Origin: Candidatus Babeliaceae bacterium
Lineage (GTDB): Bacteria > Babelota > Babeliae > Babelales > Babelaceae
Assembly (NCBI GenBank): GCA_007116155.1
Contig: SKJC01000002.1
Coordinates: 124,001 to 188,000 of the forward strand
Reading direction: 5' to 3'
Length of the DNA: 64,000 nucleotides
Shown here: piece after piece, positions 14,218 to 44,434 of the stretch
Layout: the number at the start of each line of letters is the position of its first letter
How positions within the stretch are numbered: position 1 is the first letter of the stretch
Notes under the pieces: generated by a model
The model's database searches: none
The model's input: the letters and a program-made list of their open reading frames with translations, nothing else
What the model was told of the DNA's origin: nothing
Translations under genes and position numbers: made by a program

Positions 14218-14511
14218 ATGCTTCTTTCATTTAACTCGACACTATCTCTTGCCTTCATCAGCCTCCTAATTCTTCTCTGTACCTTCTATGAATATCAATT
14301 ATTATTACATCCCAACAAAAAAAAATCGTATTCCTCACGCTACCTACAATTCCTGCACATAGGACGAACGTTACTCTTACTTCTCTGGTTACTCCTTATT
14401 TTTAAGTTGAAGTTACCCCTCTTTGGGAATATACTCGTTGCCATAGTATTCAGTAGCATATATACAGGTATGCTATTCTTTTTTTGGATAACCAGTAATA
14501 AAGGAACTTAG
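14218..14511 (+). CDS. small membrane protein at the AtpI position
   Basis: This 97-residue protein has three strongly hydrophobic segments with a basic loop (HPNKKKSYSSRYLQF) between the first two. No family motif is visible. Its position directly upstream of atpB, with its TAG sharing a base with the atpB GTG, is where AtpI, the assembly factor or Mg channel of F-type ATP synthase, is usually found. AtpI-like is therefore a context-based suggestion. A ribosome site AAAGG precedes the ATG. Confidence 0.55.
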   Translation: MLLSFNSTLSLAFISLLILLCTFYEYQLLLHPNKKKSYSSRYLQFLHIGRTLLLLLWLLLIFKLKLPLFGNILVAIVFSSIYTGMLFFFWITSNKGT

Positions 14512-15341
14512 TGGAAGAACAAGCTTTATTCCATACCGACATATGGAATCCTCTGGCTTATTTGGGCATTGAAAATCATTTTTTCGACTTAAACTTAGAA
14601 ACACTTACCCATACTTGGTTCGCACTGCTTATTATTCTACTTGCCTCCATTTTTGCGCGCATTGCGATCAGAAAACCTGAAAGTATCCCCGGACACTTAG
14701 TATTAAAAGGGATTCGTAGTCTTTATTCACTTATTCAACAGTCACTCGGACGAGTCCGCTCCTATCACTTCTATTTTATTAGCTCAATCTTTCTCTTTAT
14801 TTTTATATGCAACGCGCTACCACTTTTGCCGTTTCTAGAAGAACCAACAAAAGATCCAAATACCACATTTGCTTTAGCAATCATTGCCATTCTCTTTGCT
14901 CAAATTGAAGGCTTAAAATCGCACGGCTTCATGGCTTTTATACAAGAATATTTAAAAATGCCGCTCACGCTTTATAATAGAAAAAAGCCGATTACTCCTC
15001 AGATCCCTTTTATCATAGCAAAAAGCTTAATCAATATTGTTGCAGGAGGCTTAAGCTTTCCGCTTGAACTCATGAGTAAAAGCGCTAATTTAATCTCTCT
15101 CGCACTACGACTTTTTGGCAACATTTTCGGCGGAGCAGTTATTGTTGGCTTACTAAAAAAAGCTACCAGTGGCTCTATACTTATCAATATAATTTTAATC
15201 GGGACAGGTCTAAACCTAATCGTCACATTCTTTTTTGGATTATTCGAAGCGTTTATCCAGGCATTTGTTTTTACAATCCTTGCGACAACCTACCTCTCAC
15301 TTGCAACACAAACGCATGAAACCTCAAATCAACAAACCTAG
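14511..15341 (+). CDS. atpB: F-type ATP synthase subunit a
   Basis: Subunit a forms the ion half-channels next to the c-ring in the inner membrane. The 276-residue protein has the diagnostic helix SLALRLFGNIFGG with the essential arginine at residue 200, and a final helix FGLFEAFIQAFVFTILATTYL that matches the family end. The N-terminal FHTDIWNPL fits the usual start of subunit a. The start is a GTG with AAAGGA upstream. Genes for b, delta, alpha, gamma, beta and epsilon are not in the window, so the F1 part must be encoded elsewhere. Confidence 0.92.
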   Translation: MEEQALFHTDIWNPLAYLGIENHFFDLNLETLTHTWFALLIILLASIFARIAIRKPESIPGHLVLKGIRSLYSLIQQSLGRVRSYHFYFISSIFLFIFICNALPLLPFLEEPTKDPNTTFALAIIAILFAQIEGLKSHGFMAFIQEYLKMPLTLYNRKKPITPQIPFIIAKSLINIVAGGLSFPLELMSKSANLISLALRLFGNIFGGAVIVGLLKKATSGSILINIILIGTGLNLIVTFFFGLFEAFIQAFVFTILATTYLSLATQTHETSNQQT

Positions 15342-15350
15342 GACCTCTGT

Positions 15351-16292
15351 ATGAATATGCACTACGCACCCGTTCTTCAAATGCTTGCAACCAGCATTAC
15401 CCTTCTTGCCCCATTAACCGCAGTTAGCATCTCACAAAGTCTTTCTTCAAGGACGGCCCTAGAGGCCATGAATCAACAACCTGGTGCATTGAGTGTATTA
15501 CGCAAAACTATGATTTTAACATTAGCTATAAATGAAACTAGCGCTATTTTTGCCTTACTTACTACATTACTTATCTTTATGGGGTCTTGTACAAGCGTGG
15601 CTGAAGGGCTCGGCTATTTAGGCATGGCTTTTGCTATGGCAATCCCAGCTATTGTCGTTGGCTACCTATCAAATTTTCCTATCCGAAATGCAATTGTATC
15701 ACTTGCCAGACAGCCGAACCTTGCAACAAAACTAACCACCTTGCTGCTAATCGTATTAACAGTTCCCCAGACACCGGTAATTTTTGGTTTTGTTATGGCA
15801 ATCGTAATAAAACAATATATTATCACTGGGATTCCTCTGGCATTTGGAATAAAGCTTCTTGCAAGTGGCTTTGCCCTCGGATTTGGCGCCGTAGGACCTA
15901 GCATCGGAATCTTTCTTCTCGCCTCACAAGCTTGTTATTCTATCGGCATTGTAAAAAATTTATATGAACGAATTATCTCGTTTATATTCATTAGCCAAGC
16001 AGTTATAGAAACACCATTTTTATTTGCGCTGGTTCTTGCATTTTTAATTATGTTTTCTTCCATAGATTCATGGATACTCGCAGCCCCAATTGCAGCAGTT
16101 ATTATCTCCCTTGCGACACTCACTACAGGAATCGGCTCTGGAAAAATAGCACAAAAAGCATGTGAACAAATTGCATATAATACAGAGATGACACCCACGC
16201 TATCACGCACAAGTTTACTAGGACAAACCTTTGTGGATACGAACGTTATCTATGCAACACTGATTGCATTGGGCATCTTATTTCTTAGCTAA
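15351..16292 (+). CDS. atpE: F-type ATP synthase subunit c, four fused hairpins
   Basis: A normal c subunit is about 80 residues with two helices. This chain is 313 residues with about eight helices, readable as four c hairpins in tandem. The ion-binding positions fall at E62, Q140, E220 and D296, spaced 78, 80 and 76 residues. In repeats 1 and 2 the polar-loop proline (QQP at 42-44, RQP at 120-122) is exactly 18 residues before the ion site, as in E. coli (P43, D61). Repeat 3 keeps the helix-1 glycine pattern GFALGFGAVGPSIG. Repeat 1 also has Q29 and T63 at the positions of sodium ligands Q32 and S66 of the Propionigenium modestum c subunit. Repeat 2 has lost its carboxylate. A good ribosome site AGGA precedes the ATG. 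The last 15 bases overlap cmk, which is convergent. Confidence 0.85.
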   Translation: MNMHYAPVLQMLATSITLLAPLTAVSISQSLSSRTALEAMNQQPGALSVLRKTMILTLAINETSAIFALLTTLLIFMGSCTSVAEGLGYLGMAFAMAIPAIVVGYLSNFPIRNAIVSLARQPNLATKLTTLLLIVLTVPQTPVIFGFVMAIVIKQYIITGIPLAFGIKLLASGFALGFGAVGPSIGIFLLASQACYSIGIVKNLYERIISFIFISQAVIETPFLFALVLAFLIMFSSIDSWILAAPIAAVIISLATLTTGIGSGKIAQKACEQIAYNTEMTPTLSRTSLLGQTFVDTNVIYATLIALGILFLS

Positions 16293-38531: not shown

Positions 38532-39623
<1,092 letters not shown>

Positions 39624-39674: not shown

Positions 39675-40535
39675 ATGGAATGGCTTGCAGAACTTGCAAT
39701 AAAAATTAAACAAGAACTCTGGCTTATCTCCTGGCGCGATGTTCTTGAAATTGCATTCTTTTCCATTCTAACCTACCAGACAATTCGATGGCTTAACCAA
39801 GACAAACAAAAAAACCTACTGCTTAGCTTTTACAGTTATACGTTCCTCCTCTTTTTATCCTATTATCTTAATATAAGCGGCATTTTTTTTATTCTGCTCG
39901 TAAGCTCACCGATTCTTGCAATGCTCTTCATTCTGCTCCATCAAAAAACATTGCAGCATAACTACATAGCCCTACAAAATAAAACAACTCATGCTACATC
40001 TTCAGATCGATGGATTGAAGAATTTTTACAAACGTTCCTCTATGGCATTAACAGAAAAAAAACTCTAATTGGCGTAATAGAGCGCCAAGCAAGCCTTGAG
40101 CCATTTTTTATTGCGCGCTGTACATTCAAAACACCCTTATCAAAAGAACTGTTAACCATGTTAATAAACAGTTCAGACGGAACAGAAAGTACAATAACCT
40201 TTTGGATAAACGATAAAGGCACGCTATACGCCATAAATCCACACTGGAATATTAGCACTGAAGATATCTGGCTCAATCCAGAAATAAAACTTTCAGAAAA
40301 ACGCTTCCAAGATGCTGCAATTTTAGCGAAAAAAACTGATGCCGTTGTCATAACACTTACCCCTGAGAATCGTTTGTTTTCGGTCTTATTTGATGGTAAA
40401 CAGTATGAAAACATCAGTGCTGGCTCTGCATTTTCACTAATAAAACAATGTACTCTTCCAATAAATAATCAAAGAGGTCTCTGGTATGAACCACACCAAA
40501 AATCACAGCCTAATCAACCACAACGCAACGCATAA
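39675..40535 (+). CDS. cdaA: CdaA-like diadenylate cyclase with degenerate active site
   Basis: CdaA makes the second messenger c-di-AMP from two ATP. This 286-residue protein has the CdaA layout: N-terminal membrane helices (about residues 20-90), then a DAC-type domain (about 115-250). The domain opens NRKKTLIGVIERQ, continues LSKELLTMLINSSDGTES and ends with DAVVITLTPENRLFSVLFDGK. The catalytic DGA is DGT at 168-170 and the GTRHRAA motif reads SEKRFQDAA at 207-215, so the RHR triad is lost. Activity is doubtful. The following genes, a YbbR-like gene overlapping by 50 bases and glmM, are the known cdaA-cdaR-glmM arrangement, which supports the assignment. GGAG precedes the ATG. Confidence 0.7.
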   Translation: MEWLAELAIKIKQELWLISWRDVLEIAFFSILTYQTIRWLNQDKQKNLLLSFYSYTFLLFLSYYLNISGIFFILLVSSPILAMLFILLHQKTLQHNYIALQNKTTHATSSDRWIEEFLQTFLYGINRKKTLIGVIERQASLEPFFIARCTFKTPLSKELLTMLINSSDGTESTITFWINDKGTLYAINPHWNISTEDIWLNPEIKLSEKRFQDAAILAKKTDAVVITLTPENRLFSVLFDGKQYENISAGSAFSLIKQCTLPINNQRGLWYEPHQKSQPNQPQRNA

Positions 40536-40875
40536 GTGCCTAGCCTTAATAATTGGCATCCTTTTATGGCAAATGGTGAGTGTATTCCACAACACATCAA
40601 TTACTCTTTCGCTGCCCATATACCTTTTTAATAAAGAAGAAAATCGTACATACACAGCACCAGAAAAAGTTGAAGTAACAATTTCAGGAACAAAAAACGA
40701 TTTAAAAACAATCGATTTTTCGAGCCTAGCAATTCATTTGGATGCAAAAAAATATGCCGACGTGTACAAAAATATTATTATAGTACCCCGGCACCTACTA
40801 CTACCTCCCAAAATCCGTATAACACGGGTACAACCATCCAACATTGTAATTACCACGAAAAAAAAATCAGCCTAA
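40486..40875 (+). CDS. cdaR: YbbR-domain protein, CdaR-like
   Basis: This is a 129-residue protein: a basic N terminus, one transmembrane helix (about 18-38, with the typical ALIIGILLWQMV), and a single extracytoplasmic YbbR domain (ITLSLPIYLFN, PEKVEVTISGTKNDL, ITRVQPSNIVITT). In Firmicutes, CdaR has several YbbR domains and regulates CdaA. Here there is only one. The start overlaps cdaA by 50 bases and has AGAGG upstream. Confidence 0.75.
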   Translation: MNHTKNHSLINHNATHKCLALIIGILLWQMVSVFHNTSITLSLPIYLFNKEENRTYTAPEKVEVTISGTKNDLKTIDFSSLAIHLDAKKYADVYKNIIIVPRHLLLPPKIRITRVQPSNIVITTKKKSA

Positions 40876-40888
40876 AAGGGATTATCTC

Positions 40889-42217
40889 GTGCTCTACTTC
40901 GGAACCGACGGCATCCGCGCGGCCAACAAAAGCGCTTTTTTTTCATCAAAAATTCTATACGTCCTTGGTCAAGCCCTAGCCCTTTGGAACCAAGAAAAAA
41001 AAAATCGCACCAAAAATATTTTATGTATCTATGACACGCGCGCATCTGCATCCCACATTCTGCATGCACTTACCCAAGGTTTAATGGATGCAGAACATAC
41101 CCTATTTGACGGCGGCATTTTACCAACACCAGCAGCACACTGGATTATGCAAAAGTCACCATTTGATTTTGCGATAATCATTACGGCTTCGCACAATCCA
41201 AGTACGGATAATGGTATCAAATTACTACTCCCAAAATCAAAAATAACAGAAGCTGATGAACAAATAATCGAAAATCATTTTAGTAATCTCCTTTTACGTA
41301 CCACAAAATCACGAAGCCGAAAAAAACAAACCTGCGTACCCTTTCAGCAAGACGCTAAAAAAATTTTTTTAGAAGAATTCTTCTCCGCACTTCCAACCCC
41401 AGATCTTACTGGAAAAAAAATCTGTATTGATTGCGCAAATGGAGCAATTACCACAGTAATACATGAACTTTTAGAACCGACAAACGCAACCATACATCTG
41501 TGGAATAATAAACCTAACGGTAGGAATATTAATCAAAACTGTGGCGCCACACATCCACATGCCATTAGTACCTATGTTAAAGAATGTAATGCTGACCTAG
41601 GTTTTTCATTTGATGGTGACGGAGACCGTATTATTTCTGCTAATGCTCAGGGAATTATCAAAACTGGCGATGACTTACTTGCGGCAATATTACAACACCC
41701 AGTGTTCTCAATGAATAAAACCGTCGTGGGTACGATCATGTCTAATCAAGGATTTGCTCGATATCTAGAAAGTCAAAAAAAAGAGCTTATACGCGCACCA
41801 ATCGGAGATCGCAATATTATAAAAAGCATGGTTCAGAATGACTCGAGACTAGGAGGCGAGCCGGGAGGCCATATTATAATACTACAACCAGGCATAGCAA
41901 GCAGCGATGGACCCGCAGTAATGCTCTGGACGCTAGACAGCTTAACACATCATACTGATCAGCTACTTGCTTTTTTTACACCTGATATCCAAATTACACG
42001 AAGCATCAAAACATTGCACAAACCTGATTTTTCAGATTATACACCATACAAGCTTGCACTAGAAAAACTCCATACCATTATCCCTCAAGGGCGATCCTGT
42101 ATACGTTATTCTGGAACCGAGCCTCTACTGCGCATTACCGTAGAAAACAGCGAAGCCAAAAGTGCCGAACAAGCTCTTGATATTTTAACAAATACATTTA
42201 ATGAACTCTTTGCATAG
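40889..42217 (+). CDS. glmM: phosphoglucosamine mutase
   Basis: GlmM converts glucosamine-6-phosphate to glucosamine-1-phosphate for cell-wall precursors. The 442-residue protein starts LYFGTDGIRA with a GTG. The phosphoserine is S101 in TASHNPSTDNG, the metal loop is SFDGDGDRII, the sugar loop is GGEPGGHII (family GGEQSGH) and the phosphate-binding loop near the end is RYSGTEPLLRITVE. A Gln-Ser to Pro-Gly change in the sugar loop is unusual. In other bacteria CdaA binds GlmM and inhibits it. Confidence 0.9.
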   Translation: MLYFGTDGIRAANKSAFFSSKILYVLGQALALWNQEKKNRTKNILCIYDTRASASHILHALTQGLMDAEHTLFDGGILPTPAAHWIMQKSPFDFAIIITASHNPSTDNGIKLLLPKSKITEADEQIIENHFSNLLLRTTKSRSRKKQTCVPFQQDAKKIFLEEFFSALPTPDLTGKKICIDCANGAITTVIHELLEPTNATIHLWNNKPNGRNINQNCGATHPHAISTYVKECNADLGFSFDGDGDRIISANAQGIIKTGDDLLAAILQHPVFSMNKTVVGTIMSNQGFARYLESQKKELIRAPIGDRNIIKSMVQNDSRLGGEPGGHIIILQPGIASSDGPAVMLWTLDSLTHHTDQLLAFFTPDIQITRSIKTLHKPDFSDYTPYKLALEKLHTIIPQGRSCIRYSGTEPLLRITVENSEAKSAEQALDILTNTFNELFA

Positions 42218-42226
42218 GTATCTATA

Positions 42227-42892
42227 ATGAATAAAAAAACAGACTCCAATCTTTTCTTTTACTTTTTAAAACAGTTACAATCTTTTTTTATTAACGGTTT
42301 TTTGGCTCTCTTGCCGCTTGGCTTAACCGTATTTATCATAACATTTATTATTCGCACCGCACATCACTGGAGTACGCCCCTTCTGTCTATTTTGCCAGAA
42401 GCAATACGTACCATTCCCTTTATCGAACTTTTTTCTATCTCAATCTTTTTTATTAGTATTGGAATCGTTTTAAAATTTGTTATTTTACGGTGGTTTATTG
42501 AAAAAGCTGAAAAAATTGTTCGTCGTCTTCCGCTTATTAAACAGATTTATTTTGGAACAAAGCAACTGATTACTGCTCTTAATCCACAAGATAAGACTCA
42601 CTTTCAAAAAGTTGTACTTATCGAATTTCCTCGCAAAGGCATTTATAGTCTGGGATTTTTGACTTGCCAAAACACCTCACTGCTCCTTTCACATACAACT
42701 TCTTCAGAGGGGGCCCACAAACGGTTTTATAATATTTTCATTCCACACACCCCCAATCCAACGGGTGGAGCATTTGTCATTGCACCAGAAGAAGAATGTA
42801 TTATGACCGACCTATCTCGCCAAGATGCTATGGCTATTATTATTTCTGGAGGTATTATTCAACCAGACCAAATTGGATGCACACACACATAA
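42227..42892 (+). CDS. DUF502-family membrane protein
   Basis: This 221-residue protein has two N-terminal transmembrane helices (about 20-44 and 64-85) and a soluble domain. The motifs GFLALLPLGLTVFI, RLPLIKQIYFGTKQLITAL, VLIEFPRKGIYSLGFLT, FIPHTPNPTGGAFVIAPEEE and a closing IISGGIIQP match the DUF502 family, whose function is not established. It lies 9 bases after glmM and 14 bases before gap on the same strand. Confidence 0.8.
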   Translation: MNKKTDSNLFFYFLKQLQSFFINGFLALLPLGLTVFIITFIIRTAHHWSTPLLSILPEAIRTIPFIELFSISIFFISIGIVLKFVILRWFIEKAEKIVRRLPLIKQIYFGTKQLITALNPQDKTHFQKVVLIEFPRKGIYSLGFLTCQNTSLLLSHTTSSEGAHKRFYNIFIPHTPNPTGGAFVIAPEEECIMTDLSRQDAMAIIISGGIIQPDQIGCTHT

Positions 42893-43984: not shown

Positions 43985-44434
43985 TTATAAATCTTTTTTT
44001 ACTTCGTCTTTCTTGCTCTTTTTTGTCTTGCAAGAAAAACATGACTTACAAGCCTTTTTTTCCTTCTTTACCTTTTCTTTTTTTTCTTTTGCTGGTTTGT
44101 CTTTTTTTGAACAACATGATGGACGACAACCATTATCTTTCTTTATACAGCAAGTACCCTTTTCACGGGTTTTTCCATCACAACGGGTCCACCCACATGA
44201 CTTTTCACTCTCCTCTTTGGGAGCTTTCTCTTTTTTAACACAGCAAGATTTCTTTTCTTTCTTTGCCTTTTTCGCTTTTTTCTCTTTTTTCTTTTTTTTC
44301 TCTTTTACCGGCTTCTCTTTTTTAACGCAACAAGAACGGCATGATTTTTTAGACGCAGTCTCTTCTTCTTTTGCAAACACCGCGCTGCTGCCTATTACCC
44401 CAAGCAAAGCCAGGCTCAACAATAGCTTTTTCAT
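43985..44434 (-). CDS. exported Lys/Cys-rich protein
   Basis: This 149-residue protein has a clear signal peptide (MKKLLLSLALLGVIGSSAVFA, cleavage after AFA). The mature 128 residues are about one third lysine, with 15 cysteines in repeated modules: SCRSCCVKKEKP, SCCVKKEKAP, TCCIKKD, SCCSKKDKP and SCFSCKTKK. Low-complexity runs of KKEKK lie between them. The repeats suggest a metal-binding or disulfide-linked structural protein, or binding to a polyanion on the cell surface. No family is recognised. AGAGGAG lies 7 bases before the ATG. Confidence 0.75.
   Translation of the reverse strand: MKKLLLSLALLGVIGSSAVFAKEEETASKKSCRSCCVKKEKPVKEKKKKKEKKAKKAKKEKKSCCVKKEKAPKEESEKSCGWTRCDGKTREKGTCCIKKDNGCRPSCCSKKDKPAKEKKEKVKKEKKACKSCFSCKTKKSKKDEVKKDL

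Follow-up and report, generated by a model that had tools for sequence, protein, structure and literature searches.

A CdaA-like protein without diadenylate cyclase motifs, kept together with YbbR across the Dependentiae and probably uncoupled from c-di-AMP and GlmM

Introduction

What is the role of a protein built like the diadenylate cyclase CdaA in a bacterium where the catalytic motifs of this enzyme are gone? The question is raised by a locus of a Candidatus Babeliaceae bacterium, found in a stretch of 64,000 nucleotides (hereafter the window), whose named relatives, identified by a scan with a 10-member profile, belong to candidate division TM6 / Dependentiae / Babeliales. Dependentiae (TM6), the phylum of this genome, are parasitic. 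The gene in question (39675..40535, + strand, stop codon included) codes for a CdaA-like pseudo-diadenylate cyclase of 286 aa. A conserved neighbor, trpS (38532..39545, - strand), lies upstream in divergent orientation. Downstream, all on the + strand, come a YbbR/CdaR-like protein with one TM helix and a single YbbR domain (40486..40875), whose reading frame overlaps that of the CdaA-like gene by 50 nt (40486..40535), the phosphoglucosamine mutase GlmM (40889..42217) and a DUF502 membrane protein (42227..42892), also a conserved neighbor. The gene next to the CdaA-like/ybbR pair is glmM, here and in the majority of relatives; it is a neighbor that the module can do without.

A sequence-only reading of this DNA had pointed out the domain order of CdaA (a TM region, then a DAC fold) and the cdaA-ybbR-glmM gene order, and both are present in the window. 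It had also proposed that the protein may have lost c-di-AMP synthesis and been kept as a pseudoenzyme that contacts GlmM and controls the supply of cell wall precursors. The two halves of this proposal fared differently.

Homology and fold of the CdaA-like protein

The window protein scores below the cut-offs of the DAC model PF02457 (15.1 bits, cut-off 27) and of TIGR00159 (35.4 bits, curated cut-off 188.8), and also below that of CdaA_N (PF19293), a family that is matched by 12 of the 37 aligned members at E <=0.1. A profile of the 37 relatives matched 17 distinct sequences in the PDB, annotated as diadenylate cyclases, DAC-domain proteins or the CdaS homologue 2FB5, with no non-DAC protein among them. 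The best match was the full-length CdaA 9g69 (E 1e-13, residues 30-277), TM part included. The alignment, which begins at residue 30 of 9g69, identifies the N-terminal TM region of the window protein (with the linker, residues 1-106, 39675..39992, + strand) as homologous to the three TM helices of CdaA. The DAC fold follows at about residues 112-255 (40008..40439, + strand). A template-free AlphaFold2 model of the single chain, computed from 16 sequences, has a pLDDT of 78 overall and of about 90 in the DAC domain, and superimposes on DacA/CdaA (6gyw) with a VIA Z of 16.9, 149 of 150 residues aligned and an rmsd of 3.1. Judging from profile and model, it is beyond reasonable doubt that this ORF has a DAC fold and is a CdaA homologue. 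The profile search of solved structures, a check that the sequence-only reading had itself proposed, returned DACs only and gave no refutation by a missing fold.

Loss of the catalytic motifs

The motif losses had originally been described as a DGA changed to DGT (residues 168-170) and an RHR replaced by KRFQDA. Both losses are real, but the position of the first was mistaken and that of the second can be narrowed down. The 'DGT' (40176..40184, + strand) lies a few residues upstream of the true DGA column, and its G169 is an inserted residue that just three of the 37 alignment rows have and the other 34 lack, which makes the 'DGT' a coincidental look-alike. In a residue-by-residue reading of the HMM profile alignment to 9g69, D171-G172-A173 of the B. 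subtilis CdaA fall on T173-I174-T175 of the window protein (40191..40199, + strand, with an error of about one residue), and R203-H204-R205 fall on R210-F211-Q212 (40302..40310, + strand), within the KRFQDA stretch, where most relatives have W-K-Q and the family consensus reads W-K-Q-D-A.

None of the 37 aligned relatives has DGA or RHR at the homologous columns. The motif loss is phylum-wide and not particular to the window. A mutation of this single copy as the cause is ruled out by the relatives that share the loss; relatives with both motifs intact, which would have pointed to such a mutation, were not found in the 37-row alignment. The active-site His, Asp, Gly, Ala, His and second Arg are all replaced and variable. 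In a working enzyme the catalytic columns are expected to be the most conserved of the domain. The nine core catalytic columns have a mean conservation of 0.39, vs. 0.44 for the whole DAC domain in the 37-row alignment, and a permutation test gave P = 0.82 that random sets of DAC columns are at least as conserved. E231 of the window protein aligns with the metal-binding Glu of the SEE motif, a residue retained in 9 of the 37 sequences.

A separate observation concerns the locus with the top DAC score in the phylum (25 bits; L051, genome G078), which reads TSEE at the metal-ligand strand and is possibly a relic of an active enzyme.

Co-occurrence with YbbR and purifying selection

The CdaA-like protein was detected in 68 of 101 Dependentiae genomes, intact in 67 and as a fragment in one. 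YbbR is found in 67 of the 101, and these are exactly the genomes with an intact CdaA-like gene (Fisher P 1e-27, genomes taken as independent of ancestry; the phylum YbbR profile, of 43 rows, was built from the same loci, and a very divergent YbbR elsewhere could escape it). The fragment, in genome G068 (contig C11:6184-6360), is a piece of 59 codons with two in-frame stops in a genome where no YbbR was found, possibly a recent pseudogene. The window YbbR has a TM helix and a YbbR domain that scores over the Pfam cut-off; its profile matches Lmo2119 (5hqh) and 2l3u, and the top three matches in the fold comparison are YbbR structures. Of 39 loci, 38 have overlapping frames of the two genes (median overlap 47 nt), a conservation that suggests coupled translation.

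In two genomes (G005 and G011) the CdaA-like gene and ybbR have been cleanly lost together and trpS now abuts glmM. In one genus (g7: G014, on contig C9, G012 and G007) the CdaA-like gene has become unlinked from ybbR-glmM, at a distance of about 15 kb in G014 and on separate contigs in G012, and both are kept. Retention of the pair through linkage alone, which we also considered, is opposed by this genus. The pair is missing from about a third of the phylum. MurA is found in 62 of the 67 genomes with the pair vs. 24 of the 34 without it (P = 0.006); since several of the MurA-less genomes are incomplete, we do not draw a link to peptidoglycan from these counts.

The CdaA-like gene is under purifying selection. 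Its dN/dS (NG86) was about 0.07 for G026/G043 and 0.07 for G041/G048, and in species pairs without glmM it was 0.12 (G028/G099) and 0.09 (G058/G059), with several of the dS values near saturation; a ybbR value for L076/L077 was discarded, having only 17 codons. These low values, glmM-less pairs included, indicate that the CdaA-like protein is maintained also where GlmM is absent.

Conserved residues and the former active-site pocket

A way to approach what is being maintained is to look at where the conserved residues lie. Mean column conservation is 0.50 in the TM region, 0.48 in the linker and 0.44 in the DAC domain, and the best-conserved columns belong mostly to the first two (D22, E25, W39, P79, H89, Q94; also W113). 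Invariant residues persist among relatives at 23% identity or more. A second set of conserved columns lies near the old pocket: W177 (33 of 37), N188 (33 of 37), W191 (31 of 37) and W210 (24 of 37). W191 aligns with Tyr187 of CdaA, which stacks on the adenine, and the W210 column is that of the first Arg of RHR (the window itself has R210). With W177, W191 and W210 conserved around it, the pocket may not be functionless.

Along these lines, the DAC pocket might have been repurposed to bind some other small molecule through the conserved Trp residues, forming with YbbR a receptor. The Trp at the Tyr187 position and the newly conserved W177, W210 and N188 near the old site speak for this; however, the neighboring catalytic columns are variable and, to judge from the alignment, the Trp side chains may merely fill an empty pocket, so that we consider the idea rather unlikely. 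If the Trp-lined pocket and YbbR did make up a new transmembrane receptor, CdaA-CdaR signaling would be older than, or separate from, c-di-AMP.

Separability from GlmM

The proposal that the pseudoenzyme is kept to bind and control GlmM has in its favor that glmM adjoins the pair here and in the majority of the relatives, and that CdaA and GlmM bind each other in Firmicutes (PMC8573169, PMC6368335). The window GlmM looks active from its intact catalytic motifs (TASHNP, DGDGDR and GGEPGGH): the S-H-N of the phosphoserine motif, DGDGD and the Glu, Gly and His of the sugar loop are intact, and the phosphoserine motif, DGDGD and the sugar-loop Glu are invariant in 28 members of the phylum. The sugar loop had been singled out as altered (GGEPGG). 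There is indeed a variation, the usual form in the phylum being GGEP/T/Q/N-S-GH, but it is small and keeps the Glu, Gly and His.

Against a role in GlmM control, 10 of the 67 pair-bearing genomes, eight of which are 90% complete or more, have no GlmM orthologue (counted as a match of 230 to 430 bits or as a fragment in that locus). At these loci (L076-L085) trpS, the CdaA-like gene, ybbR and duf502 are consecutive and glmM is cleanly absent, duf502 coming directly after ybbR, although trpS was not seen in G058, G059 and G060. The species without glmM are scattered over several clades of the tree, and one of them (G060) is sister to a species that has it (G046) with a support of 0.999; as the backbone is weak, we claim the independent losses just as "several". 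Conversely, 26 genomes have GlmM and lack the pair, and the CdaA-like protein and GlmM are not significantly associated (Fisher P = 0.29, 101 genomes). The contact residues are not preserved either. In B. subtilis these are R126 of CdaA and D151, E154 and D195 of GlmM (PMC8573169). The corresponding CdaA-side column (R127) is not conserved (K11, N7, R3, A3, H3 and others in 37 rows), and the three GlmM columns are variable among members of the phylum. Together with the purifying selection that persists in glmM-less species, these data contradict the earlier suggestion that the protein was retained for its contact with GlmM and the control of precursor supply, and we regard this explanation as improbable.

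The ten genomes that have the pair but not glmM are left with a PgmG-like mutase. PgcA of B. subtilis can replace GlmM (PMC6797236), and by analogy a mutase of the PgmG-like type could do the same.

Searches for c-di-AMP signaling components across the phylum

The loss of the cyclase motifs is accompanied by an absence of the other components that we looked for. No DAC match over the curated cut-off was found in any of 101 Dependentiae species, vs. 11 of 14 control genomes, and the same 101 species, mostly metagenome assemblies with gaps, gave neither a c-di-AMP riboswitch nor a PgpH over the cut-off. Two further checks had been suggested by the sequence-only reading. The search of the window's own genome for other DisA_N domains found none, and hence no second, intact DAC; as for c-di-AMP phosphodiesterases, besides the lack of PgpH, the single DHH protein of this genome (where GdpP-like proteins were searched) is RecJ. 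In the literature searched we found c-di-AMP mentioned nowhere for Dependentiae, and no study of a pseudoenzyme derived from a diadenylate cyclase. The first half of the earlier proposal is therefore borne out as far as sequences can tell: an unconserved active site, no DAC or PgpH over the cut-off and no riboswitch all point to a loss of c-di-AMP synthesis in a protein that was probably kept as a pseudoenzyme.

That the protein still works as a diadenylate or dinucleotide cyclase, of an atypical kind and with changed motifs, could be imagined from the preserved fold and membrane architecture and from E231 at the SEE metal Glu. However, six catalytic residues are replaced and variable, that Glu occurs in only 9 of 37 sequences, and the phylum has no riboswitch and no PgpH over the cut-off, all of which leaves such an enzyme very improbable. 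A functionless, decaying remnant, as the absence of the pair from about a third of the phylum and the fragment with two stops might suggest, is hardly credible in view of the frame that is open in 67 genomes, the low dN/dS, the residues invariant down to 23% identity and the conserved ybbR overlap.

A proposed membrane module with YbbR

We favor as the probable explanation that the pseudo-cyclase and YbbR have been retained as a membrane module that is no longer coupled to either c-di-AMP or GlmM. A CdaA ancestor would have lost ATP binding and cyclization early in the Dependentiae lineage. The CdaA-like protein would supply the membrane and cytoplasmic parts of a two-protein complex and YbbR the extracytoplasmic one, with a conserved contact between YbbR and the TM helices of the CdaA-like protein; the dead DAC domain may act as a scaffold or as a signal-output surface rather than as an enzyme. 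The analogy comes from Listeria, where CdaA is reported to be contacted by CdaR at its TM region and by GlmM at its cytoplasmic domain (PMC8573169). The pattern in Dependentiae fits a loss of the cytoplasmic functions (cyclase and GlmM docking) with the membrane contact kept, which is why we propose a membrane module.

The proposed module resembles known systems only in part. It has in common with CdaA/DacA (TIGR00159, PF19293 + PF02457) the N-terminal TM region, the DAC fold and the cdaA-ybbR-glmM order, but the Dependentiae protein is devoid of DGA, RHR and the metal ligands, remains below the curated cut-offs and is not tied to GlmM. The partner is like CdaR/YbbR (Lmo2119, 5hqh) in having one TM helix followed by an extracytoplasmic YbbR fold, and its gene comes directly after cdaA. 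The CdaR of B. subtilis has several YbbR domains, whereas the window YbbR has a single one, and here it co-occurs just with an inactive CdaA. As in the CdaA-GlmM complex of B. subtilis and S. aureus (7olh, 9g69), the genes are adjacent in most species; unlike there, the interface residues are unconserved and GlmM is dispensable for keeping the pair.

How CdaR regulates CdaA is unclear even in model bacteria (PMC8573169). A phylum in which c-di-AMP synthesis and, more than once, GlmM were lost while CdaA and CdaR stayed together is a natural experiment, which suggests that the two membrane proteins have a task of their own, one that does not need c-di-AMP. The residues under selection for this task would be the Asp and Glu of TM1, Trp39, Pro79, His89, Gln94 and Trp113.

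Other genes in the window

Two more genes of the window deserve mention. One (15351-16292, + strand) codes for a fused ATP-synthase c-subunit of 313 aa with four ATP-synt_C matches, in which three of the four hairpins carry a carboxylate (E, E and D) and the remaining one a Gln. It follows an atpB-like ORF (14511-15341), beside an F-type a subunit; a c subunit with four hairpins and three carboxylates is similar to V-type rings, and in an F-type context it would be unusual. The other (43985-44434, - strand) codes for a small, secreted-looking protein of 149 aa, rich in Lys and Cys, with repeated CC motifs and no Pfam match.
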